Shown: positions 13,248 through 34,129 of the stretch, piece by piece
Layout: each line of letters starts with the position of its first letter
How positions within the stretch are numbered: position 1 is the stretch's first letter
Virus record (IMG/VR): IMGVR_UViG_3300035666_000081
Location: 1 to 37,218 of that record
Source of the DNA: a virus
DNA length: 37,218 bases
Direction: 5' to 3' (one strand)
The notes under the pieces: generated by a model
The model's input: only the letters and a program-made list of their open reading frames with translations
The model's database searches: none
Told to the model about the DNA's origin: nothing
Position numbers and translations under genes: made by a program

Positions 13248-15533
13248 GTGGCCAATAGGCGGATAACAGAACTTCCTGCAATTTCTTCGTCAAATATCAA
13301 TGACGACGACCTTCTCATGGTCGTAGATGTTGCAGAAGTTGATCCGGGACTAAAAAATAAAAAATTAACGTTTACAAATACCAAACAATATTTTAATAAT
13401 TATTACCTTCAGTTAACTGGCGGTACGGTTGCGGGGTCTTTAACTGTTGAAGGCTCTCTGTCCATTAGCGGTGCTTTCAACCTAGCGAATGTTAACGTTA
13501 CACAAACAGGTACGTTTAGTTACCTAGTTGTCAATAGTGGCACCGTACTTAGCGGCACAACAAGTGGCGTTACTTTTACCGGTGATACATTTGCCGGTTT
13601 AAACGTTAATGCATCCACCGGTAATATTACAACTTTAACAGTTGGCACAGAAACTGTTGGTACAGGTGATTTTACTCGCGTAAGCGGTGTAACTGTAACG
13701 GGGACAACCGGCTTATTTAGCGTTGTTACTGGACAAACAATCACTGGTGCCACTGGTTTATTTTCTAGTCTTAGCGGGACAAATATTACCGGTGTATCCG
13801 GTGTTTTTACAACACAAGTCTCTGGTCTTACCGTCACAGGCAGCACCGGTTTATTTGCAAACTTAACTGGTGTATCCGGGGTATTTACAACCAGAGTATC
13901 TGGCTTAACTGTTACAGGTGCCACCGGTTTATTTGGTCAAGTAACTGGCGTTTCAGGTATTTTTACAACGCAAGTTTCAGGTTTAACAGTCACTGGATCT
14001 ACTGGTTTATTTGCAAACTTAACCGGTGTTTCCGGCACATTCACAACTAGGGTATCTGGTCTAACCGTCACAGGTACTACCGGTTTATTTAGAACCATCA
14101 CAGGCTCTGGCGCAACTTTTACCACTAGTGTTTCTGGCTCAACAATTACCGGAGACGCAGGTCAGTTTTCAAATATTACAGGTGTTTCTGGCGTCTTTAC
14201 AACACAATTATCCGGCAGTGTCCTAACGGGAGATACAGGAAGGTTTACGACAATTACTGGTGCAACTGGTATTTATACCGCAAGACTTTCCGGTGCAACA
14301 ATTACGGGTGTTAGTGGTTTATTCCAACGCATTGAAGCGTTGACAGGTGTTTTTACAAACACTCTTACTATTCCAGCAATCAGTACAACTGGCGACATTA
14401 CAGCTGCCGGAAACCTATCGATTAGCGGTAGTGGTACCATCTCAACCAACCTTGTTGTTAGCGGTACTGTTTCCGGCGGTACAATCACAGGAATTACCGG
14501 GATATTTGGAGAGTTAAACGGCAACGAGATTTATGGCGCAACATCTATTTCCGGTGCAACAATTACAGGCGCTTCTGGAAACTTCACAAGACTTACTGCC
14601 GTTACAGGTGTTTTTACAACAACATTAAGTGGAGCAACAATAACCGGATCTACGGTTAATGCAACAACAGGAAACTTTGTTTCTGGTAACTTTACCCGGG
14701 TTTCCGGTACCACGATCACAGGCGTAACTGGTCTTTTTGAAGCATTTACGGCTACCACTGGTACATTTACATCTCAACTATCGGGTGCTTTAATTACCGG
14801 TGTTACAGGACAGTTTCAAGCGCTCACCGGAATCTCTGGGACATTCACAAACACTTTATCTGGAGCTGTTGTAACTGGGGATATTGGCCAGTTTGCAAAT
14901 ATCACCGGTGCATCAGGTGTTTTTACAACACAGCTTTCAGGTGCTTTAATCACTGGTACAAACGCTGCTTTTAGTAATATCACCGGCGTCAGTGGCGTCT
15001 TTACTACACGAGTTTCTGGCGCAACAATTACAGGCGCCACCGGTCTGTTCACCAGAATAACTGGTTGCACCGGTGTTTTCACTGATGAGTTATCGGGTGA
15101 ATTTGTATTTGGAGAAGCCGCTACTTTCAATTACATCACTGGTTCCACACGAGTAGAAGCCCAAAACATCTCGGGTGGAACAATCACTGGTAATTATTTA
15201 AGCGCAGGTGGAGTTACCGGTGTTACCGGTATCTTTACCAATCTTTCCGGGGCAACCATCACCGGTCAAACGATTAACGTTACAACGATTAATGCAACGA
15301 CTGGTAATATTACATTCGCTAACTTCACCCAAACAACAACAGGTAGTATTCAGGTTAGCGGCAGTGGATTATTTGGTGGTGCTCTTCAGTCTTTAATTTT
15401 TGAAAACAAAATAGCAATTAATAGCGGTGTGACAATTGGCAGCGGCTACAACGGACTGTCTGCTGGTCCTGTGTCTATTGATTCAGGCGTCACAGTTGTT
15501 GTGCCGTCAGGTAGTTATTGGCGCATTGTGTAG
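13248..15533 (+). CDS. Long repetitive tail-fibre-like protein, 761 aa
   Basis: The N-terminal 60 residues (MANRRITELPAISSSNINDD and on) look like a virion-attachment domain. Nearly all the rest is an imperfect repeat of about 20-25 residues built on TGVSGVFTTQVSGLTVTG and TGLF. Such Gly/Thr/Ser/Val repeats form long triple beta-helix shafts in phage fibres. The end is a short non-repeat part (SGVTVVVPSGSYWRIV). The GTG start at 13248 has AGGA 12 bases upstream. The product probably recognises the host surface, and its companions downstream share the adhesion block. The mirror-image minus-strand ORFs here are artefacts of the biased composition. Confidence 0.75.
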   Translation: MANRRITELPAISSSNINDDDLLMVVDVAEVDPGLKNKKLTFTNTKQYFNNYYLQLTGGTVAGSLTVEGSLSISGAFNLANVNVTQTGTFSYLVVNSGTVLSGTTSGVTFTGDTFAGLNVNASTGNITTLTVGTETVGTGDFTRVSGVTVTGTTGLFSVVTGQTITGATGLFSSLSGTNITGVSGVFTTQVSGLTVTGSTGLFANLTGVSGVFTTRVSGLTVTGATGLFGQVTGVSGIFTTQVSGLTVTGSTGLFANLTGVSGTFTTRVSGLTVTGTTGLFRTITGSGATFTTSVSGSTITGDAGQFSNITGVSGVFTTQLSGSVLTGDTGRFTTITGATGIYTARLSGATITGVSGLFQRIEALTGVFTNTLTIPAISTTGDITAAGNLSISGSGTISTNLVVSGTVSGGTITGITGIFGELNGNEIYGATSISGATITGASGNFTRLTAVTGVFTTTLSGATITGSTVNATTGNFVSGNFTRVSGTTITGVTGLFEAFTATTGTFTSQLSGALITGVTGQFQALTGISGTFTNTLSGAVVTGDIGQFANITGASGVFTTQLSGALITGTNAAFSNITGVSGVFTTRVSGATITGATGLFTRITGCTGVFTDELSGEFVFGEAATFNYITGSTRVEAQNISGGTITGNYLSAGGVTGVTGIFTNLSGATITGQTINVTTINATTGNITFANFTQTTTGSIQVSGSGLFGGALQSLIFENKIAINSGVTIGSGYNGLSAGPVSIDSGVTVVVPSGSYWRIV

Positions 15534-15537
15534 ACGT

Positions 15538-15543
15538 TATAAT
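15538..15543 (+). promoter_or_regulatory. Promoter -10-like hexamer TATAAT
   Basis: A perfect TATAAT sits directly after the fibre gene's stop and 19 bases before the ATG at 15562. It resembles the sites at 998, 13215 and 35076. No -35 box is clear. Confidence 0.4.
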
Positions 15544-15561
15544 AAAAAATAAAAGAACACA

Positions 15562-15906
15562 ATGTCATACGGAACAGCCAAAGTCGATACGCTGGCATAC
15601 ACAACAATTACCGGAGAAACTACGGTTTTAGTTTCTGGTATTTACAACGTTGCCAGTACCGTTAGTGTTTTTGATCCTGTTACAAAAAACATTTCAACAA
15701 CAGGCGTTATCTCCGGAAGTGTTTATAAAGTCAGTGGCAACGTAACTGTTATCAGCGGTTCAGGAGATATTCGTCCCTACGGTCTATATTCCTTTCCTGC
15801 GATCACTGGCGTATCTGGACAAGTGCTTAGGACAAACGCAGACGGAACAACGTCCTGGACGGAGCCCACAACACTTACCACTGCAAAAACTATTGCCTTG
15901 AACTGA
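15562..15906 (+). CDS. Small beta-rich virion protein, copy 1 of a tandem pair
   Basis: This 114-aa protein and the next gene's product are paralogues. Both carry NISTTG(V/A)ISG then YK(V/T)SGNVTVISG and (R/S)PYGLY at the same relative positions. The Gly/Ser/Thr/Val composition matches the fibre protein upstream, so it may be a fibre tip, collar or chaperone-like piece of the same apparatus. A distinct C-terminus (TTSWTEPTTLTTAKTIALN) separates it from copy 2. No enzyme motif is seen. Confidence 0.6.
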   Translation: MSYGTAKVDTLAYTTITGETTVLVSGIYNVASTVSVFDPVTKNISTTGVISGSVYKVSGNVTVISGSGDIRPYGLYSFPAITGVSGQVLRTNADGTTSWTEPTTLTTAKTIALN

Positions 15907-15907
15907 A

Positions 15908-16255
15908 ATGACAACATTAAAAGTTGATTTCATTACGTTTGCAGGCGCATCTTCTGACGTAACGCTTGAAGTTTCAGGCATTGCAAGCAGCGGTAACTAT
16001 GCCATTGCAACAGGCTTGATTGATCCGACAACAAACAATATTTCAACAACAGGTGCCATCTCTGGAGGTACCTATAAAACCAGTGGGAATGTCACCGTGA
16101 TCAGCGGGGGCGGCGCCATTAGTCCTTATGGATTGTATGTTTTGGCTTCCGGAACTCCGTGGGCAGGTGCGTCGATCACATACAGCAGCGGTACGCAAAC
16201 TGTTTGGCAAACACTCACAAGTACTGCACTTTCTATTGCATTAGGTAAGTGCTAA
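15908..16255 (+). CDS. Small beta-rich virion protein, copy 2 of a tandem pair
   Basis: The start lies one base after the stop of its paralogue. It shares the central NISTTGAISGGTYKTSGN block and PYGLY but differs at both ends (N-terminal MTTLKVDFITFAGASSDVTL, C-terminal LTSTALSIALGKC). The central conservation with divergent ends suggests duplication followed by specialisation of the exposed parts. Likely a fibre-associated or surface protein by context. Confidence 0.6.
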   Translation: MTTLKVDFITFAGASSDVTLEVSGIASSGNYAIATGLIDPTTNNISTTGAISGGTYKTSGNVTVISGGGAISPYGLYVLASGTPWAGASITYSSGTQTVWQTLTSTALSIALGKC

Positions 16256-16279
16256 TATAAAAGAAAAGTAGATCCTAAA

Positions 16280-16615
16280 ATGCCTGAAGCGTTTACAAAT
16301 AGTGGTGTACAGCTAACAACGACTGGCATCACTGATGTTTATCAGGTGCCCACTTCGTCAGGCGCCCGGACCGTTGTGTTGTCCTCCCTGGCCGCTAACG
16401 TGACAGGAACTGTAGCCATCACTTACAACCTGGACGTTACAAATAGCAGCAATACTTTGGTTGCAAGCATCGCCAAGCAAATCACAATTCCCGCTGGTGC
16501 AACCCTGGAGCTGATCCCCAACAAGGTTGTGTTAACTTCTGGCCAAAAGCTGCGTGCTACAGCAGGTGCAGCAAGTGGTATTCATGTGGTCACATCCGTC
16601 TTAGAAATTACTTGA
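16280..16615 (+). CDS. Small virion protein, 111 aa
   Basis: A Val/Thr/Ser-rich beta-strand protein that reads like an immunoglobulin-like or jelly-roll virion domain: TSSGARTVVLSSLAANVTGT, then AITYNLDVTN and LELIPNKVVLTSGQKLRAT. I recall similar short proteins annotated as virion structural components in cyanophages. An AATATAAAAG sequence at about 16255 may be a promoter. It precedes the first repeat protein by seven bases. Confidence 0.6.
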   Translation: MPEAFTNSGVQLTTTGITDVYQVPTSSGARTVVLSSLAANVTGTVAITYNLDVTNSSNTLVASIAKQITIPAGATLELIPNKVVLTSGQKLRATAGAASGIHVVTSVLEIT

Positions 16616-16622
16616 TCTATAA

Positions 16623-18308
16623 ATGTCCTTAGAAACATTCGAAGCGGGATACGCAGGCGCACGTCCGCCTCGGAAGGGCACACAGTGGTCTGGCGTCTGG
16701 AGACTTCAACAGCAAGTTGATCGGATTATTGATACCGCATGGCCGCAGCCGTGGGGGTTGGCCGGTGCACGATCTGATTTTCCAATATTCAGCATTGCTG
16801 ACCAAGAGACAACTTCTACTGACGTGTTTTTTAAATCAGACGGTACTAAATTTTATATTGTTGGCAGCACAAACGATACAGTATATCAATACTCATGTTC
16901 TACAGCATGGGATATCAACACTGCATCTTATGACAGTAAATCATTCAGTGTTACAACGCAAGACACTAATCCAACAGGATTGTTTTTTAAATCAGATGGT
17001 ACTACGTTTTATATTATTGGCAGCGGAAGCGATACCGTATATCAATACTCATGTTCTACAGCATGGGATATAAGTACTGCATCTTACGACAGTAAATCAT
17101 TTAGTGTTAATGCGCAAGAGTCTGGGCCAACTGGATTATTTTTCAAAGATGACGGTACTAAGTTTTATATTATTGGCAGCGGAAGCGATACCATATATCA
17201 ATACTCATGTTCCACTGCATGGGATATAAGTACTGCATCATATGACAGTAAATCATTTAGTGTTGTAACACAAGAAACTACTCCAACTGGATTATTTTTC
17301 AAAGATGACGGCACTAAGTTTTATATTGTTGGCACTACAAACGATACCGTCTATCAATACTCTTGTTCTACCGCATGGGATGTAAGTACTGCATCGTATG
17401 ACAGTAAATCATTTAGTTTTGGAACACAGGAAACTAGTCCTGGAGGACTGTTTTTTAAATCAGATGGCACTAAGTTCTATATCATTGGTAATACAAACGA
17501 TACCGTACTTGAATACTCCCTATTAACTCCCTGGGATGTTAGTACGGCTTATGCCGCTTATTTCTATGTGGGTGGACAAGATACAAACCCAAGCGATGTA
17601 CATTTCAAACCTGATGGGACCAAGTTTTATATTGTTGGCAGCACAAACGATACAGTATATCAATACTCATGTTCTACAGCATGGGATATCAACACTGCAT
17701 CTTATGACAGTAAATCATTCAGTGTTACAACGCAAGACACTACTCCACAAGGATTATTTTTTAAAGATGATGGTACTACGTTTTATATTATTGGCAGCGG
17801 AAGCGATACCGTATATCAATACTCATGTTCTACAGCATGGGATATAAGTACTGCATCTTACGACAGTAAATCATTTAGTGTTAATGCGCAAGAGTCTGGG
17901 CCAACTGGATTATTTTTCAAAGATGACGGTACTAAGTTTTATATTATTGGCAGCGGAAGCGATACCATATATCAATACTCATGTTCCACTGCATGGGATA
18001 TAAGTACTGCATCATATGACAGTAAATCATTTAGTTTTGGAACACAGGAAACTAGTCCAACTGGATTATTTTTCAAAGATGACGGCACTAAGTTTTATAT
18101 TGTTGGTATTACAAACGATACCATCTATCAATACTCTTGTTCTACCGCATGGGATATAAGTACTGCATCGTATGACAGCAAGTCATTCAGTGTTAATACG
18201 CAAGAAAATGCTCCGGCAGGATTATTTTTTAAACCTGACGGCGCTAAATTTTATATTGTAGGCACAGCATTTGATACGATTTATCAATACTCTCTTCTAT
18301 TAGAATAA
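16623..18308 (+). CDS. Propeller-like repeat protein, 10 units of 52 aa (561 aa)
   Basis: After a 58-residue N-terminal region (GYAGARPPRKGTQWSGVWRL is typical) the protein is ten copies of a 52-aa unit. Its signature is GLFFKDDGTKFYIVGSTNDT, then VYQYSCSTAWDISTASYDSK and SFSV. A unit with F-Y-I-(V/I)-G strands and repeated Trp-Asp is what beta-propeller blades look like. Units 5 and 10 are divergent and lack the SCSTAWD block (they have LEYSLLTPWD and YQYSLLLE), so the copies fall into two sets of five. DNA of units 2-3 and 7-8 is identical over 267 bases, showing recent duplication. Probable adhesin or receptor-binding protein; no enzymatic motif is visible. Confidence 0.65.
   Translation: MSLETFEAGYAGARPPRKGTQWSGVWRLQQQVDRIIDTAWPQPWGLAGARSDFPIFSIADQETTSTDVFFKSDGTKFYIVGSTNDTVYQYSCSTAWDINTASYDSKSFSVTTQDTNPTGLFFKSDGTTFYIIGSGSDTVYQYSCSTAWDISTASYDSKSFSVNAQESGPTGLFFKDDGTKFYIIGSGSDTIYQYSCSTAWDISTASYDSKSFSVVTQETTPTGLFFKDDGTKFYIVGTTNDTVYQYSCSTAWDVSTASYDSKSFSFGTQETSPGGLFFKSDGTKFYIIGNTNDTVLEYSLLTPWDVSTAYAAYFYVGGQDTNPSDVHFKPDGTKFYIVGSTNDTVYQYSCSTAWDINTASYDSKSFSVTTQDTTPQGLFFKDDGTTFYIIGSGSDTVYQYSCSTAWDISTASYDSKSFSVNAQESGPTGLFFKDDGTKFYIIGSGSDTIYQYSCSTAWDISTASYDSKSFSFGTQETSPTGLFFKDDGTKFYIVGITNDTIYQYSCSTAWDISTASYDSKSFSVNTQENAPAGLFFKPDGAKFYIVGTAFDTIYQYSLLLE
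16797..18305 (+). repeat. Array of ten 156-base coding repeats
   Basis: The repeat period is 156 bases, matching the 52-aa unit, except around unit 5, which is six bases shorter. Segments 16995-17261 and 17769-18035 are identical, and 16851-16966 closely matches 17625-17740. These identical blocks are separated by 774 bases, the length of five units less six bases. Confidence 0.85.
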
Positions 18309-18323
18309 GGAAAAAATAAAGCG

Positions 18324-20816
18324 ATGAAAGGTAATTACATCGGTAAAAAACCTGTTGGTTACGGCCAAATCTCCTCGGGTAAACCTGGGATGTGGGAGAT
18401 TTATGACCAAGGGCAATTCACCCGGGATGGAGAGTGGACTGGACTCCCCTGGGAAGTGGACAAGGGATATTACACGAATAAGCAATGGCCGCTTGGATTA
18501 TCAGAAATTACTTTTCAAGACGTTCAATTCAGTACTGATGGAACTAAGTTTTATACTGTTGGCACTACGAACGATACCATCTATCAATACTCTTGTTCTA
18601 CGGCATGGGATGTAAGTACTGCATCCTATGACAGTAAATCATTCAGTGTTACAACGCAAGAAACTGTTCCAACAGGATTGTTTTTTAAATCAGATGGTAC
18701 TACGTTTTATATTATTGGCAGCGGAAGCGATACCATATATCAATACTCATGTTCTACCGCATGGGATGTAAGTACAGCATCTTATGACAGTAAATCATTT
18801 AGTGTTAATGCGCAAGAGGCTGGGCCAAATGGATTATTTTTTAAAGATGATGGTACTAAGTTTTATATTATTGGCAGCGGATTTGATACGGTTTATCAAT
18901 ACTCCTGTTCTACCGCATGGGATATAAGTACTGCATCATATGATAGTGTTTCGTTTAGTGTTGCTGGACAAGATACTATTCCATTCGGATTATTTTTTAA
19001 AGATGATGGCACCAAGTTTTATATTGTAGGAACTGCAAACGATACCGTCTTTCAATACTCATGTTCTACTGCATGGGATGTAAGCACTGCATCGTATGAC
19101 AGTAAATTATGTAGAGTTCAATTTGATGGAACCCCAGCAGGAATAACATTTAAAGATGACGGAACTAAGTTATACGTCATAGGTAATTCAACTAGTCGAG
19201 TTTATGAATTCACTTTATCTACGGCGTGGGACATCAGCACAAACAACCAAGCGGGAAGTGGGTTTTATATCGGTGGACAAGAGGGCACCTCAACCGATGT
19301 GCAGTTTAAGGATGATGGAACCAAGTTTTATATTATTGGTACTACAAACGATACCATCTATCAATACTCATGTTCTACCGCTTGGGATGTAAGTACTGCA
19401 TCCTATGACAGTAAATCATTTAGTGTTGCTGGACAAGATACTAATCCACAAGGATTATTTTTTAAAGATGACGGTACTAAATTTTATATTGTCGGTAGTA
19501 CAAACGATACTATCTATCAATACTCTTGTTCTACGGCATGGGACATAAGTACTGCATCGTATGACAGTAAGTCATTCAGTGTTGCAACACAGGACAATGC
19601 CCCAACTGGTATATTTTTTAAAGATGACGGGACTAAATTTTATATTGTTGGTAATACAAACGATACAGTCTATCAATACTCATGTTCTACTGCATGGGAT
19701 GTCAGTACTGCATCCTATGACAGTAAATCATTTAGTGTTGTTGGACAAGAGAATGGTCCAACTGGATTATTTTTTAAAGATGACGGCACTAAATTTTATA
19801 TTGTTGGCATTACAAACGATACGGTCTATCAATACTCATGTGCTACTGCATGGGATGTAAGTACAGCATCCTATGACAGTAAATCATTTAGTGTTACAAC
19901 GCAAGAAAATAATCCACTTGGATTATTTTTTAAATCCGATGGCACTAAATTTTATATTGTCGGTAGTACAAACGATACAGTCTGGCAGTATGACCTTCCC
20001 CTAGCCTGGGATATCGTAAACGCTGGCTTTACTGCTAAAAATATGAACGCGGCGTTGCAAGAATCAGCCCCACAAGATATTACATTTAAACCAGATGGCA
20101 CACGATTTTATGTTATCGGCAGCACAAATGATTCAATTTTCCAATACGACTGCAGCAATCCCTGGGATGTAACAACGGCAACATTTAATAAAACAGCTAG
20201 CGGTGCTTTTGCTAGGGCACGGGTTGGCTTGCAAGACACTGCTCCAACTGGATTATTTTTCAAAGATGACGGTACTAAGTTTTATATTATTGGCAGCGGA
20301 AGCGATACCATATATCAATACTCCTGCTCTACTGCATGGGATATCAGCACTGCATCTTATGACAGTAAATCGTTTAGTGTTGTAACACAAGATAGTCTTC
20401 CGGTTGGGTTATTTTTTAAAGATGATGGTACTACGTTTTATATTGTTGGCACTACAAACGATACCGTATATCAATACTCATGTTCTACCGCATGGGATGT
20501 AAGTACAGCATCTTATGACAGTAAATCATTTAGTGTTAATGCGCAAGATACTGGGCCAACTGGATTATTTTTCAAAGATGATGGCACTAAGTTTTATATT
20601 GTAGGCAATACAAACGATACCGTTTATCAATACTCCTGCTCTACCGCATGGGATGTAAGCACTGCATCGTATGACAGTAAGTCTTTAAGTGTTCTTGCGC
20701 AAACAACGGATAGTAGGGGTCTTGCGTTGGGCTATTCAGGAACAATTTTGTATATTGTTGATGGTACAGCAAGTGCAACTATTGTTCCGGGTGTTTACCA
20801 GTATTATTTAACGTAA
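18324..20816 (+). CDS. Propeller-like repeat protein, 15 units of 52 aa (830 aa)
   Basis: A larger paralogue of the preceding protein. A different N-terminal region of about 59 residues (GKPGMWEIYDQGQFTRDGEW) is followed by fifteen 52-aa units of the same GLFFKDDGTKFYIVG and VYQYSCSTAWDVSTASYDSK type. Strong divergence occurs at unit 5 (VYEFTLSTAWDISTNNQAGS), at units 10-11 (VWQYDLPLAWDI, IFQYDCSNPWDV) and at the last unit. This gives three sets of five, against two in the shorter paralogue. The two genes differ by exactly five repeats, as if a set is the unit of gain and loss. Likely a second adhesin or an alternative fibre; no catalytic motif is seen. Confidence 0.65.
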   Translation: MKGNYIGKKPVGYGQISSGKPGMWEIYDQGQFTRDGEWTGLPWEVDKGYYTNKQWPLGLSEITFQDVQFSTDGTKFYTVGTTNDTIYQYSCSTAWDVSTASYDSKSFSVTTQETVPTGLFFKSDGTTFYIIGSGSDTIYQYSCSTAWDVSTASYDSKSFSVNAQEAGPNGLFFKDDGTKFYIIGSGFDTVYQYSCSTAWDISTASYDSVSFSVAGQDTIPFGLFFKDDGTKFYIVGTANDTVFQYSCSTAWDVSTASYDSKLCRVQFDGTPAGITFKDDGTKLYVIGNSTSRVYEFTLSTAWDISTNNQAGSGFYIGGQEGTSTDVQFKDDGTKFYIIGTTNDTIYQYSCSTAWDVSTASYDSKSFSVAGQDTNPQGLFFKDDGTKFYIVGSTNDTIYQYSCSTAWDISTASYDSKSFSVATQDNAPTGIFFKDDGTKFYIVGNTNDTVYQYSCSTAWDVSTASYDSKSFSVVGQENGPTGLFFKDDGTKFYIVGITNDTVYQYSCATAWDVSTASYDSKSFSVTTQENNPLGLFFKSDGTKFYIVGSTNDTVWQYDLPLAWDIVNAGFTAKNMNAALQESAPQDITFKPDGTRFYVIGSTNDSIFQYDCSNPWDVTTATFNKTASGAFARARVGLQDTAPTGLFFKDDGTKFYIIGSGSDTIYQYSCSTAWDISTASYDSKSFSVVTQDSLPVGLFFKDDGTTFYIVGTTNDTVYQYSCSTAWDVSTASYDSKSFSVNAQDTGPTGLFFKDDGTKFYIVGNTNDTVYQYSCSTAWDVSTASYDSKSLSVLAQTTDSRGLALGYSGTILYIVDGTASATIVPGVYQYYLT
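18501..20813 (+). repeat. Array of fifteen 156-base coding repeats
   Basis: The same repeat family as 16797-18305. Variation concentrates in the two or three residues before each FFK motif (for example TVP, AGP, TIP, NAP, NGP), while the rest is nearly constant. The array is a hotspot for recombination between the two genes. Confidence 0.85.
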
Positions 20817-20833: not shown

Positions 20834-21946
20834 ATGACAATTTGTTTAAAAGATGCGGCAAAATACTATAACGAACTACCACATCAATCAAAAGCCTGGG
20901 ATTGGCTTGAGCAAAACACACCGCCAAACACACTGGCTGAGTTCGCTAAACAATACAGAAATCAACAGGCTCTTGCACAGCCTTACTCCAATACATGGGA
21001 AGGTTTGATCAGTGCTGCCAAAGAAGCCGGGGCCAAATACCCAGAATGTGTTGCGGCCCAGTGGGCATTAGAAAGCGGCTGGGGCAAACACACATCAGGA
21101 GCAAATAACTTCTTTGGTTTAAAGGGATCTGGAACCAGCGTCAACACTCAAGAATTCATAAACGGAAAATGGATCACCATCAAAGACGGTTTCATTGATT
21201 TTCCTGATCTTTATTCCTGTGTTTGTTATTTAGTTGATCGGTGGTACAAAGACTTTGGTAAATACAAAGGCGTTAATCGTGCCACAAGCAGAAATGAATG
21301 CGCTGAGCTATTGGTAAAAGAAGGGTATGCAACGGATCCCGACTACAGCAAGAAGCTCATTCAAATCATGGATCGAGAAACCAAGACGAGTGAGCCCATT
21401 AAACCGGAGCCAACACAAAATAAAATCTTAACTGTCCCATATGAATACCAACTTGATAATCAATCGCAAACTGGGTACCGGGAATGTTTCTCCTCCACAT
21501 GTGCAATGATTGCCAAATATTACGGAAAAGTAAAAAACGATGACGAATATAACAAAATCCGCAGCCGATATGGAGACACAACCGCCAAAAAGGCACAGCT
21601 TGCTGCATTAACATCCCTGGGCCTTAAAGCCAAGTTTATTACCAACGGAAACGCAACACTTTTGGAAAATGAAATCAACGCAGGCAGACCCGTTGCTGTC
21701 GGTTGGTTACACAAAGGAAGTATTGGTTATCCCACAGGTGGCGGCCATTGGAGCTGTTGTATTGGTTACACGCCAACCACGTTTGTTTTCAATGATCCAA
21801 ACGGAGAAGCTGACATGGTTAATGGCGGGTATGTCAGTAATCAAGCTCAACGCGGAAAAAGCGTACAATACAGTCGTAAAAATTGGCTACGTCGTTGGGA
21901 ATGCGACGGCAACAACACAGGATGGGCTCTTCTTGTCGTAAAGTGA
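20834..21946 (+). CDS. Two-domain endolysin: GH73-type glucosaminidase plus C39-type peptidase
   Basis: The N-terminal domain (about 50-180) matches endo-beta-N-acetylglucosaminidases of the FlgJ/GH73 kind. VAAQWALESGWGKH carries the catalytic-type Glu80, followed by the family marker NNFFGLKG (91-98). After a Pro/Thr/Glu linker (EPIKPEPTQNK), the C-terminal domain fits the peptidase C39-like fold: Cys218 in YRECFSSTCAM, His305 in GGGHWSCCIGY and Asp321 in FNDPNG form the expected Cys-His-Asp triad. Together the halves could cut glycan and peptide bonds of the host wall. A GAGG eight bases before ATG supports the start. No signal peptide is visible. Confidence 0.82.
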   Translation: MTICLKDAAKYYNELPHQSKAWDWLEQNTPPNTLAEFAKQYRNQQALAQPYSNTWEGLISAAKEAGAKYPECVAAQWALESGWGKHTSGANNFFGLKGSGTSVNTQEFINGKWITIKDGFIDFPDLYSCVCYLVDRWYKDFGKYKGVNRATSRNECAELLVKEGYATDPDYSKKLIQIMDRETKTSEPIKPEPTQNKILTVPYEYQLDNQSQTGYRECFSSTCAMIAKYYGKVKNDDEYNKIRSRYGDTTAKKAQLAALTSLGLKAKFITNGNATLLENEINAGRPVAVGWLHKGSIGYPTGGGHWSCCIGYTPTTFVFNDPNGEADMVNGGYVSNQAQRGKSVQYSRKNWLRRWECDGNNTGWALLVVK

Positions 21947-24926: not shown

Positions 24927-26171
24927 TTACTTCTTTGCTTTCTTCCTGGCTTTTGGCTTGACAATCTGCGGCTTCTCCTCCTCCCGCTTGGCAATGACCT
25001 CCTGGAAAACGTCGTCAAATTGATCGGCAACCGTATCCCAATCGAAGCAGGGATCCGTCACACGCTCATAACAAGCCTGTGCGGTCTCATCGAGCAGTTG
25101 ACGGTCTTCATACAGCTTTGCAAGCAGCTCAGCCAGATGGTTGTCATCGGGGCACGGCATGATACGACCAAAGTTTGTATCCACATCAGCATGGAGAGAA
25201 CGAATCAAGAGGCCAGCGCCTTCAAAAATTTCCTTACAAGACGTGTGATCAGGCACCACCTGGGCCACACGACAGGCGGCATGTTCAAAATTCACAAGCC
25301 CCCAGCCCTCACCCTTGCAGGTATTAACACCTACGTCGGCCACGTTATAGATGGTATTGAGCAGCTCCACCGGCACCGAGGGGGGATGCGGGTGCGGCGA
25401 AGTCATGATGATGCGGTTGTTGGGATCCAACCCTTGACGTGCCATCTCCCGTGCAAATAGCGGCATGATGTCCCATCCCTGGTCCTTCATCCCCATATGC
25501 ATGTAAAGCTTGGCGTTCGGGCGACCGACCGCAAACTTGGCAAAGGCACTGATTGTAATGTCTTGCCGTTTACGGAATTGATTTCGATTGCCATTGAACA
25601 CAATGAAATCATCTTCTTCCAGCCCCAGTTCTTTCCGCGCTTTTTTCTTATCAACGGGATAAAACTGTTTAGGCGTCATGCCATGAGGAATAACAGTAAT
25701 CGGCACCTTGGCACCCGCACGAATTGTTTCGTTTGCACCAAATTCCGTGTAGCAGATTGCTGCATCCCAATCATTGAGTGTATCCAGGAGAGCTGCATAC
25801 CACTCATACGAATCCATGGGGTAGTAGCCCACGAACTTGAAGTTGAGCGATTCCCTTAAATCAGCAATGCGCTTCCATTGTTCGTTAATGATCCAGCTGT
25901 CGTTAATCGTAAAGACAACATCTGGCTTAACCAACTCAACAATTTCGCGAATTCGATCTTCTCCAAAGGGCGCCTGCTGGAACCGATTGGAGGCTGGATA
26001 CATGCGGTACTCATCTTGCAACGGCGTGTAGTCACCGTGCCAGTTACAACCAAGCACATGAATTTCATATCGATCCTTCAGGCGGCTCAGTACATTTTCT
26101 GTGACCCGTGCAAAGCCAGTCATGGCGACGATATCGCCAATCCAAAGAAGTTTAGGTTTGTTTTCAGTCAT
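24927..26171 (-). CDS. Glycosyltransferase, family GT4 (GT-B fold)
   Basis: The 414-aa product has the GT-B two-domain layout. The N-terminus is KLLWIGDIVAMTGFARVTEN with the loop that holds the acceptor side. A linker-region VIPHGM leads to the donor-binding domain. The E-x7-E type motif appears as CKGEGWGLVNFEHAACRV. It transfers a sugar from a nucleotide donor, probably onto phage DNA, virion protein or host surface glycan. It ends with a Lys-rich tail (PKARKKAKK). The ATG at 26171 is preferred to a TTG three codons upstream. It is the last gene of the minus-strand operon and lies downstream of SpeD. Confidence 0.85.
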   Translation of the reverse strand: MTENKPKLLWIGDIVAMTGFARVTENVLSRLKDRYEIHVLGCNWHGDYTPLQDEYRMYPASNRFQQAPFGEDRIREIVELVKPDVVFTINDSWIINEQWKRIADLRESLNFKFVGYYPMDSYEWYAALLDTLNDWDAAICYTEFGANETIRAGAKVPITVIPHGMTPKQFYPVDKKKARKELGLEEDDFIVFNGNRNQFRKRQDITISAFAKFAVGRPNAKLYMHMGMKDQGWDIMPLFAREMARQGLDPNNRIIMTSPHPHPPSVPVELLNTIYNVADVGVNTCKGEGWGLVNFEHAACRVAQVVPDHTSCKEIFEGAGLLIRSLHADVDTNFGRIMPCPDDNHLAELLAKLYEDRQLLDETAQACYERVTDPCFDWDTVADQFDDVFQEVIAKREEEKPQIVKPKARKKAKK

Positions 26172-26200
26172 TACTTGCAAGTTGACTGAATTTACTATAC

Positions 26201-31167: not shown

Positions 31168-31339
31168 CTTAACCCGCTTTTACTACTGCGAACCTTGCCT
31201 TGGTCTAAAAGAATTCTTAAAACGTGATTACTACACCAAAAACGGTGTGGCATTCGAAGACGTAGAAACCGTCAACGCCGACAGATTTGAAGCTAAATTA
31301 ATTGAAGAAAACCAAGAGTACATTCGGGTTGATTTGTGA
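31160..31339 (+). CDS. Small CxxC protein, glutaredoxin-like
   Basis: A TTG at 31160, overlapping the end of hli in another frame, opens 59 codons. The product has a strand followed by CxxC and a helix (RFYYCEPCLGLKEFLKRDYY), then VAFEDVE, which is how thioredoxin-fold proteins begin. It is short and lacks the cis-Pro and C-terminal half of a full glutaredoxin. It ends in GTGA shared with the glycosyltransferase start. It may be a truncated redox protein or a zinc-binding protein. The coding call rests on tight overlap at both ends. Confidence 0.5.
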   Translation: MCNLTRFYYCEPCLGLKEFLKRDYYTKNGVAFEDVETVNADRFEAKLIEENQEYIRVDL

Positions 31340-32082
31340 GTAAAGATCCTGCGCCCATCGAACTTATCGGCACCATGATCGTCAATGGTGCCGATGATCT
31401 ATACAAACACTTCAATTCGATTGACTTTCCAGTCAAACGATATTTCATCGTTGACAACTCCATGGGGAAAGACCCCGCAGTTCGAGACGCAATTGAGACA
31501 ATTGTCAGCGAAAGCTCACAATACGTGGATGAAGTTGCCGTTGTTTTCAACCGTTTAAACGTCGGCTTCTCTGGGAGTGTCAACCAAATCATCAAACAAA
31601 ATACCGATTCCCCCTACTGGTGCATCTTTTCGGTTGATTGGCACGTTAAACCAGGAGAACTTAAGCGCCTGGCTAAACGCCTACAGGATCCGTTCGTTGG
31701 CATTCTTTGCGATAAAAGCCAAAATGGGTATTCGTCCCTGGTATTTAAACCCGCATTACTGTACGAAGTTGGTTATCTGGATGAAAACTTCTTCCCTGCG
31801 TATTACGAAGACAACGACCACCGCTATCGCATGAAGTTGGCGGGGCTGAAATGGGAATATTTCCCCCTGGATTACGACCACATTGTGAGTGCAACCCTCA
31901 AAAGGGACCCTGAATTTGCGACAAAAAACCAAAAAACTTTTAAAGAAAACGCACGGTATTACGTTGAAAAATGGGGAGGCATGCCAGGCCAGGAGAAGTA
32001 TCTCACCCCTTTTGACATGGACCTCCCCCTGGACTACTGGTTATACGACCCAGTGCGTAGCCAGAGACAACGATGGATTTAA
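31336..32082 (+). CDS. Glycosyltransferase family 2
   Basis: The GT-A layout is seen: FIVDNS near residue 37 (nucleotide-sugar loop), NVGFSGSVNQI, then WCIFSVDWHVKPG with an Asp at the metal-binding position, and FFPAYYEDNDHRYRMKLAG near residue 155 with the acidic catalytic-type residues. It transfers a sugar to another sugar or protein. The start is a GTG within GTGA of the CxxC gene. It is followed with overlap by the epimerase, so it belongs to one sugar-processing operon. Confidence 0.82.
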   Translation: MSKDPAPIELIGTMIVNGADDLYKHFNSIDFPVKRYFIVDNSMGKDPAVRDAIETIVSESSQYVDEVAVVFNRLNVGFSGSVNQIIKQNTDSPYWCIFSVDWHVKPGELKRLAKRLQDPFVGILCDKSQNGYSSLVFKPALLYEVGYLDENFFPAYYEDNDHRYRMKLAGLKWEYFPLDYDHIVSATLKRDPEFATKNQKTFKENARYYVEKWGGMPGQEKYLTPFDMDLPLDYWLYDPVRSQRQRWI

Positions 32083-32939
32083 GTTTATATGGTGCCACGG
32101 GAATTATTGGTTCCTATTACCGTGCCTTATTTCCGGTCCATTGCATACCCAGGGATCAGTACCATCCCGAAACAAAAGATGTTCTATACCTAATCAGTAC
32201 AACAGATAACGCCACCTACAAAGAAAACCCTCACATCGATATTGACACCAATTTGGTGCAACTCCTTAAACGGCTTGAGGCATGCCGTTTGGCAAACATT
32301 GATACATTCAATTTTGTGAGCAGTTGGTTTGTCTATGGACCTGACCATTCGTTTCCCAATGAATCGGCCATTTGCAACCCGAACGGTTTTTATTCCATCA
32401 CAAAGTATGCAGCGGAAAAATTAGTTAAAGAATACTGCTCAACCTTTGGGATTAATTATCGTATCTTGCGTCTTGGCAATGTATACGGCGGACCCGACAG
32501 CGGCTCCAACAAACGCAATGCATTACATTACCTTATCAATCACCTGCGCAATCATAATGACATTACCGTTCATATCAATATCTCCCGAGATTTCATTCAC
32601 ATCCTGGATGTATGCCGCGCTTTAAATCTCCTTTGTAGCAAAGGGAGCAACCATGAAATTTACAACATAGGTACAGGAATTTCAACCCGTTTAGGCGATG
32701 CCCTGGATAATGCCAAACTTTTATTGAATTCAAAGGGATGTGTTTTGCGAAGCAATGTACCCGCCAATTACAACCAAGCCGTACACTTTGCATTAGATTG
32801 TGGCAAACTAAAGTCTCACGGCTTTCAACATTTAATTCCCCTGGAAGAAGGATTGCGCGACCTATGTCTACATCAAAAGTTTTGTACTCCGGACCCTACT
32901 TTGATGGAACAGAGATTGAAGCAGCAATTGCCTGCTTGA
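32073..32939 (+). CDS. NAD-dependent sugar epimerase/dehydratase (SDR family)
   Basis: The product starts with the Rossmann nucleotide-binding loop YGATGIIGSYY and has the catalytic pair in FYSITKYAAEK (Tyr-x3-Lys), preceded by FNFVSSWFVYGP with the catalytic-type Ser. ILRLGNVYG and YNIGTG are further family markers. It interconverts or dehydrates a nucleotide-activated hexose (GalE/WcaG-type). It overlaps the GT2 gene by 10 bases at its start and the RfbH-like gene by 76 bases at its end. The substrate is unknown; the neighbour suggests a deoxysugar pathway. Confidence 0.85.
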   Translation: MDLSLYGATGIIGSYYRALFPVHCIPRDQYHPETKDVLYLISTTDNATYKENPHIDIDTNLVQLLKRLEACRLANIDTFNFVSSWFVYGPDHSFPNESAICNPNGFYSITKYAAEKLVKEYCSTFGINYRILRLGNVYGGPDSGSNKRNALHYLINHLRNHNDITVHINISRDFIHILDVCRALNLLCSKGSNHEIYNIGTGISTRLGDALDNAKLLLNSKGCVLRSNVPANYNQAVHFALDCGKLKSHGFQHLIPLEEGLRDLCLHQKFCTPDPTLMEQRLKQQLPA

Positions 32940-34129
32940 AAGAAGGGGCCTGGTATCCAGCGGGCAAAGAGGTAGATAAGTTTGAGCGCCAGTTTTCCAA
33001 AGTCTTTGGTTTTGGTTCATCGTTGATGGTGAATAGCGGCAGCTCTGCCAACCTTGTGATGCTTGCTGCGTTAAAAAAATATTTCGAATGGCCAGACGGA
33101 GCCGAGATTATTGTTTGTGTCGTTGGTTTTCCAACCACAATCAACCCAATCCTGCAAAATAATCTCGTCCCCAAGTTTGTTGATATCACTTGGGATGACC
33201 TTAACTGGAATCTGGATCATGTCGAAGCCGCCATCACGGATAAAACAGTCGCTGTATTTAGTAGTCCTGTTTTGGGTAATTGTTATGACCTGGATCGTTT
33301 ACTCGATATCTGCTCCAAGCATTCCCTGAAATACATTGCAGATAATTGTGATTCTCTTGGCTCCAAATGGGATGGTGATTACTTAACCAAGGAAGCAGTT
33401 GCAGCCTCCACTTCTTTTTATCCAGCCCACCACATCACAACCTTAGAAGGTGGAATGGTGTCATCCAACATTCCAGAGATTATTCAACTTGCACGCCAGT
33501 TTGCCTGGTGGGGGCGTGACTGCTATTGCGTTGGTGCTTGCAACACATTAGCAAAAGGGATGTGCGGCAAACGTTTTGATTACTGGCTGGAAGATTACGA
33601 TGCCCTGGTCGATCATAAATATGTGTTTAGTCAAATCGGTTACAATCTCAAACCCCTGGATCTACAAGGGGCAATTGGTCAGGTTCAACTAAAAAAATTT
33701 GATGAGGTCCATCGCATCAGAAGGAGTAATTACAAACAGATCAGCAGTCATATCGAAGATCGTTTCTATACAACAGATCTTCGCATCATCAAAGAAAAAC
33801 CCCAAGCAGAAACGTCATGGTTTGGTGTTCCCATTGTCTGTGACAATGCCCAATTAAAGACAGCTTTACAACAGCACCTGGAAACCAACGGTGTTCAAAC
33901 CCGCAATTATTTTGCTGGTAATTTACTGCTACACCCTGCGTACAAACATTTGGGCAACGCTAAAGATTTCCCTAATGCATATGACGTGTTGAAGCGTGTT
34001 TTCTTCTTAGGCACAGCCCCCTGCATTACCCGAGAAGACCTGGTATACATTAAAAAACAAATCAATTCTTTTGCATTAAAAACACCCATTGGTGCAGACG
34101 GCCACTCTGTACGGTTTCTTGTGAATTAA
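32864..34129 (+). CDS. rfbH: RfbH/ColD-like sugar 3-dehydratase with Fe-S cysteines (DegT fold)
   Basis: The 421-aa product belongs to the PLP aminotransferase-fold sugar enzymes, but the Lys that would hold PLP is replaced by His in SFYPAHHITTLEGG (His189-His190). This replacement defines the 3-dehydratases (ColD and the E1/RfbH enzyme) that remove the 3-hydroxyl of a 4-keto-6-deoxyhexose. Cysteines typical of the [2Fe-2S] E1 type are also present: Cys162 in ADNCDSLGSKW and the cluster DCYCVGACNTLAKGMC (Cys220, 222, 226, 234). The spacing of the last Cys is longer than in typical RfbH. The ATG at 32864 is used; a longer frame to 32738 lies under the epimerase gene. Needs a reductase partner, not seen here. 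Confidence 0.82.
   Translation: MSTSKVLYSGPYFDGTEIEAAIACLKEGAWYPAGKEVDKFERQFSKVFGFGSSLMVNSGSSANLVMLAALKKYFEWPDGAEIIVCVVGFPTTINPILQNNLVPKFVDITWDDLNWNLDHVEAAITDKTVAVFSSPVLGNCYDLDRLLDICSKHSLKYIADNCDSLGSKWDGDYLTKEAVAASTSFYPAHHITTLEGGMVSSNIPEIIQLARQFAWWGRDCYCVGACNTLAKGMCGKRFDYWLEDYDALVDHKYVFSQIGYNLKPLDLQGAIGQVQLKKFDEVHRIRRSNYKQISSHIEDRFYTTDLRIIKEKPQAETSWFGVPIVCDNAQLKTALQQHLETNGVQTRNYFAGNLLLHPAYKHLGNAKDFPNAYDVLKRVFFLGTAPCITREDLVYIKKQINSFALKTPIGADGHSVRFLVN

Follow-up and report, generated by a model that had tools for sequence, protein, structure and literature searches.

Introduction

A five-bladed beta-propeller is found in tachylectin-2, a sugar-binding lectin with high internal symmetry. The context of the tachylectin-2 family has been treated together with recently amplified propellers, which have near-identical blades and several rings per chain, and in which WD40 peaks at 7 and 14 blades (PMC9218822). 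Blade numbers in these amplified propellers form a continuum, and a protein with 15 blades was modelled as 7+8 (PMC9218822). Five-bladed propellers are also already known from phage receptor-binding proteins. These are Gp45 of Staphylococcus phage phi11, which has five blades of four strands each and is closed by an N-terminal strand, and PRD1 P2, a phage host-binding head with five blades that is cited in the same study (PMC4901313).

Here we describe two adjoining genes on the plus strand of a viral DNA sequence of 37,218 nucleotides (IMG/VR record IMGVR_UViG_3300035666_000081, positions 1 to 37,218; this whole stretch is called the window below). Open reading frame (ORF) calling gave protein 1 (P1, 561 aa, 16623..18308), with a short N-terminal region and two five-blade sets, the latter supported by structure prediction, and protein 2 (P2, 830 aa, 18324..20816), with an N-terminal region and three five-blade sets defined by repeat anchors. 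A first-pass annotation had taken both for repeat adhesins apparently built from five-bladed propellers, and had described such propellers as known but rare. They are indeed known, but their rarity was slightly overstated, as phi11 Gp45 and PRD1 P2 have them (PMC4901313). We consider it quite probable that P1 and P2 act at the tail tip in receptor binding, and that the five-blade rings of which they are made serve as evolutionary cartridges.

Sets of five in P1 and P2

Ten units of 52 aa in P1 and fifteen in P2 had been proposed, and the anchor motif DGT(K)FY, present in exactly 10 copies in P1 and 15 in P2, confirms both numbers. The spacing between anchors is 52 aa, except for 50 between units 5 and 6 of P1, 51 between units 4 and 5 of P2 and 58 between units 11 and 12 of P2. 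Tandem Repeats Finder (TRF) recovers the same array, with a 156-bp period and ~25 copies. Identity matrices place the divergent units at positions 5 and 10 in P1 and at 1, 5, 10, 11 and 15 in P2, in agreement with the first-pass annotation (5, 10 and, in P2, near 10-11 and 15) and with unit 1 of P2 as an addition.

Comparison of units within and between P1 and P2 revealed that those in the same position modulo 5 have a protein identity 0.078 higher than the rest (shuffled mean 0, standard deviation 0.009; p=0.002, which is the floor of 500 shuffles). Periods from 2 to 7 were tested; no excess was found among these units for periods 2, 3, 4 and 7, and period 6 gave a smaller excess than period five (0.043, p=0.012). 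At the DNA level, P1 units 3 and 8 share 120 nt without a difference (100% identity), and identity is 94% for each of the pairs 2/7 and 4/9.

The position of a unit within its set is also marked. Units that open a set carry (S/T/Q)D(V/I)xF in place of the TGLFF of other units, and units that close a set are without the YSC that other units carry. The sets of P1 comprise units 1-5 (16788..17532; repeat anchors, unit identity and the model of a single set) and units 6-10 (17562..18305; unit identity and the model of P1), both predicted five-bladed propellers. Those of P2 comprise units 1-5 (18486..19227; repeat anchors, unit identity and a tree of sets), units 6-10 (19263..20007; the set tree and nucleotide comparison with the homologous locus L009) and units 11-15 (20043..20813; repeat anchors and unit identity), where unit 11 is lengthened to 58 aa. 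Read in the phase FSV..xxQExxP..DGTKFY..QYSC..WDIST, the proteins contain exactly 10 (P1) and 15 (P2) blades; every set opens with a lone strand and ends in a three-stranded blade. This fits the 1+3 closure expected of propellers, in which the N-terminal strand of the set supplies the outer strand missing from the last blade.

Predicted structure

AlphaFold2 (AF2) models were obtained for the whole of P1, using 28 homologues, and for a single P1 set (16758-17549), using 71 other sets as the alignment; strands were assigned by DSSP on both. The model of P1 (mean pLDDT 90.9, pTM 0.80) has four strands per unit, and the opening strand of unit 6 is as short as that of unit 1, so that the chain splits into two domains after unit 5. 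The lone set is modelled as a compact domain (pLDDT 96.8, pTM 0.93).

The highest-ranked Foldseek matches of the two-ring and the single-set models are propellers. For the lone set, the top scorers in the Protein Data Bank (PDB) are mostly 7-bladed, with TMq ~0.5 and rmsd mostly 5-9 Å, and the six-bladed Pizza6S gave a TMq of 0.57. In BFVD, a predicted viral protein annotated as a baseplate wedge subunit aligns with the set at 1.1 Å along 261 columns, which equals the length of one set. Five blades in an open arc would be expected to superpose much better on a 7-bladed ring than the lone set does, and the strand order, with an extra strand before blade 1 and three strands in the last blade, fits closure. 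The P1 sets are therefore strongly predicted to be closed five-bladed rings, on the strength of their strand order and of the poor fit of the lone set to six- and seven-bladed rings. The PDB matches of the two-ring model were dominated by double 7-bladed proteins at low TM; they were uninformative on ring size and were set aside. The P1 model, with its break after unit 5, the set boundaries and the repeat numbers of relatives support the earlier proposal that the building block is a predicted five-bladed propeller, present twice in P1 and three times in P2.

Gain, loss and replacement of whole sets

Relatives of P1 and P2 were taken from contigs of viruses, genomes of bacteria and archaea and isolated phages; most of the patterns used covered one unit and were blind to repeat number. 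The resulting census holds 186 non-redundant complete ORFs, and 180 of them have 5, 10, 15, 20 or 30 units, in line with the multiples of five anticipated by the first-pass annotation. Automatic counting accounts for 159 of these genes (63 with 5 units, 71 with 10, 21 with 15, three with 20 and one with 30) and inspection for the other 21. The 27 genes that were not counted automatically include 15 with spurious hits outside the sets, 6 with a degenerate fifth blade, 4 that are interrupted and 2 genuine exceptions; about half of the 27 were read as sequence, and the others were judged by the spacing and position of hits. Two irregular numbers from the first count were discarded, 13 units in L054 being put down to a contig end and 14 units in L083 to one missed unit. 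The isolates ICBM2 and Molly_1 have 5 units each, and so do S-SKS1 and ctPCi537, with a weak final unit. Propeller sets were also observed in cellular genome records (L191, L198, L218 and L227), from metagenome-assembled genomes of Patescibacteria, from Draconibacterium, with a lipoprotein-like N-terminus, and from Halorhabdus.

Three slots set off by conserved spacers characterise the fibre family of the Roseobacter phages CRP-13, CRP-9, CRP-2 and CRP-738. CRP-13, CRP-9 and CRP-2 have 5+5+5 units, and CRP-738 is 5+LamG+5, its slot 2 matching Laminin_G_3 (PF13385; E 2.3e-12; L092, 2751-6146). The metagenomic contig L182 also has a LamG-like domain in slot 2, assigned by sequence similarity. 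Slots may be empty as well: slot 3 in L180, and slots 1 and 3 in L185 and L186. In more than ten 10-unit proteins, unit 5 is separated from unit 6 by ~47 aa that belong to a sandwich-like carrier domain. A second type of carrier is the glycine-rich domain (PF21722) into which the sets of L083 (5185-8841) are inserted.

Within the lineage of the window, orthologues of P1 have 5 units (L015), 10 units (the window, L009 and L012) and 20 units (L099). The P1 of L011 has 8 units, and that of L016 has 5, in an uncertain assembly. P2 has 15 units in all seven phages with a complete P2, that is, the window and six others. The suggestion that whole propellers are gained and lost is thus borne out by relatives, both in the 5/10/20-unit orthologues and in the slots holding a set, LamG or nothing.

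Divergence between close relatives

G001, the phage that contains L009, matches the window at 99.1% identity in the first 13 kb, and the 8.2 kb matched past 22 kb are 99.1% identical as well. Identity is 96.0% in the endolysin, 91.9% in P1 and 84.1% in P2. A sharp island of divergence from G001 (L241, L242), at 16623-20816, coincides with P1 and P2. About 150 bp of set 2 of the L009 P1 is 98-100% identical to set 2 of the window P2, and in the set tree this L009 set clusters with P2 set 2, not with set 2 of the window P1 (support 0.84 and 0.95). In the comparison with a further phage, G006 (L243-L245; window 13248-18308), identity is ~66-76% in the shaft and in the small ORFs upstream of P1, against ~99% in the genes that follow P2; given this divergence to the left of P1, exchange seems to extend into the shaft.

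Substitutions between the window and L009 affect 76 of 242 positions in D-A and B-C loops, as against 24 of 274 positions in the A-B and C-D loops (p=0.002 by columns; the Fisher p of 7e-11 overstates independence, as units share history). The D-A and B-C loops share one face of a propeller, so that one face of the ring is variable and the other conserved.

Genomic context

The primase of the window is 62% identical to that of Synechococcus phage S-EIV1, and another ORF is 59% identical. The window derives from an S-EIV1-like freshwater phage, most likely with a cyanobacterial host. P1 and P2 are situated at the tail-fibre locus, all genes named here being on the plus strand unless stated otherwise. 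Upstream is a shaft-like ORF (13248..15533) with short repeats of ~26 aa (GVSGVFTTQVSGLTVTGATGLF), detected by TRF as a tandem array, the N-terminus of which resembles the corresponding ORF of cyanophage S-EIV1. Downstream is an endolysin (20834..21946) with matches to glucosaminidase and C39-like peptidase domains, and the S-EIV1 endolysin has the equivalent position. In S-EIV1, the position of P1 and P2 between the shaft-like gene and the endolysin is taken by a 601-aa fibre with, judged by eye, an S74-type C-terminus, which supports P1 and P2 as putative tail-tip binding proteins.

The N-terminal regions of the two proteins are probably attachment segments. That of P1 (16623..16787; W..GVWRLQQQVDRIIDTAWP), with pLDDT < 50 at residues 1-40, is kept in the orthologues L009, L011, L012, L015, L016 and L099, and that of P2 (18324..18485; MKGNYIGKKP..GMWEIYDQ..W) was delimited by sequence and by its conservation in L009, L011, L012, L014, L015 and L099.

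Two adjoining small ORFs between the shaft and P1 (15562-15906 and 15908-16255) resemble paralogues of each other. Genes for a glycosyltransferase, a nucleotide-sugar epimerase and an aminotransferase are present at 31336-34129 and, on the minus strand, at 24927-26180, which suggests phage-encoded sugar modification.

A proposed role for the rings, and its alternatives

From the synteny with S-EIV1, the replacement by LamG and the hypervariability of one face, we infer that P1 and P2 are adhesins that vary host binding; virion location, glycan binding and an effect of the sets on host range are part of the same inference. According to this proposal, each would be a tail-tip receptor-binding protein in which a short N-terminal segment is followed by beta-propellers in tandem, two in P1 and three in P2. 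Each propeller would consist of five four-stranded blades of ~52 aa, with the strand before blade 1 completing the last blade, and the five-blade ring would serve as folding unit and evolutionary cartridge alike. Entire rings would be gained or lost, placed in the slots or loops of a carrier and exchanged with LamG or other binding domains, and would recombine in register with sister rings of their own and the neighbouring gene. The variable D-A and B-C loops, on one face of each ring, are proposed to contact glycans of the host surface, and several rings in a chain may provide avidity or several specificities.

Several observations weigh against this proposal. Three intact genes do not have a multiple of five, namely L011 and L068 with 8 units and L191 with 6 (L068 is outside the 186 as a redundant relative of L017-L020). 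Near-identical repeats may collapse in short-read assemblies and can also mislead AF2. In L016, which otherwise shows 100% identity across ~7 kb upstream, the contig stops directly behind P1, just short of the P2 repeats, so that the five units may be an assembly collapse; L016 was therefore set aside as proof of a recent loss of a whole ring. The dN/dS between the window and L009 is low (0.24 in P1, 0.19 in P2), which points to recombination or import of older variants more than to fresh positive selection. In papers on ICBM2 and CRP-9/13, searched by terms, there was no mention of these proteins and no virion proteomics or binding data for them. Finally, it is the 7-bladed YVTN/lactonase propellers (1l0q, E 1.9e-19) to which the sequence profile comes nearest.

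The profile likeness just mentioned would also suit a model in which a set of five does not close alone and two sets pair as a 10-blade ring or a swapped dimer, and engineered WD40 fragments do assemble into varied homo-oligomers (PMC6805158). We regard such pairing as quite unlikely, given that many natural proteins carry one set or three, that the ~47-aa carrier pieces keep sets apart, and that the lone set, besides its high pTM (0.93) and poor superposition on 7-bladed rings, has in BFVD a match at 1.1 Å to a stretch the size of a single set. The multiples of five might instead reflect common descent of whole genes from a 10-unit ancestor, without modular sets, and the 10-unit proteins of the first scan are indeed mostly related to one another. 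This explanation is highly improbable, as relatives have 5, 10, 15, 20 and 30 units, three of these numbers (5, 10 and 20) occur within one orthologous gene, and sets are found in different carriers and slots; moreover, the scan patterns, being mostly motifs of one unit, do not select for unit number, and the set tree partly mixes P1 and P2 sets.

The rings may also be truly five-bladed and yet be enzymes, gluconolactonase-like or polysaccharide-degrading, or structural spacers, with no part in receptor binding. Pfam matches to SGL and Lactonase speak for this, as does the proximity of P1 and P2 to fibre and endolysin genes. The SGL (PF08450) score is above the cut-off, yet the top stretches span only ~37 residues, the best covering 37 of 246 profile positions, and a match running along the six-bladed enzyme domain was not found. 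The restriction of variability to the loops of one face, with the other face conserved, is as in a binding surface, and a lectin-type domain, LamG, can replace a set. An enzymatic or spacer role thus appears unlikely, and we favour receptor binding by five-blade cartridges.

More generally, we lean slightly towards the view that five-bladed propellers are exchangeable recognition cartridges of aquatic phages and of certain cellular relatives, and that LamG swaps, in-register recombination and changes in loops or ring number alter host binding by recombination alone. If so, this would be a widespread family in which evolution works on entire closed rings and folding quantises the number of repeats, unlike the continuum of PMC9218822. 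Gain, loss and exchange of cartridges, together with recombination, would provide a concrete genetic route to altered receptor recognition, centred on two genes in phages that are otherwise 99% identical. The alternation of set, LamG and empty slot at one site makes the idea testable in the cultured phages CRP-13, CRP-9, CRP-2 and CRP-738. Natural, highly symmetric five-bladed rings would also be of use in protein design.

Comparison with known systems

The nearest sequence profile is that of YVTN/SGL/Lactonase propellers, such as the archaeal surface-layer protein 1l0q; with P1 as sole query, the PDB yielded only weak sequence matches. These propellers have 6 or 7 blades, in contrast to the five of each P1/P2 set. 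Tachylectin-2 is a single ring, and Pfam and PDB sequence searches gave no tachylectin match that would place P1 and P2 in its family. PRD1 P2 is likewise a single ring, distorted, and is not among the sequence matches; we know of no modular sets in it. In phi11, Gp45 has one ring per chain in a trimeric stem/platform/tower protein (PMC4901313), and it is absent from the PDB sequence-search matches, so that its likeness to P1 and P2 is without demonstrated homology.

The amplified propellers of PMC9218822 are continuous in blade number, whereas the P1/P2 family is characterised by near-strict multiples of five and by markers of set position. In the literature searched, in which subscription journals are little covered, we met with no account of this family, nor of near-strict multiples of five, nor of slots that LamG can also fill. 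Five-bladed phage propellers and tandem amplified propellers are thus known, and what is new in P1, P2 and their relatives is the strict modularity in sets of five.

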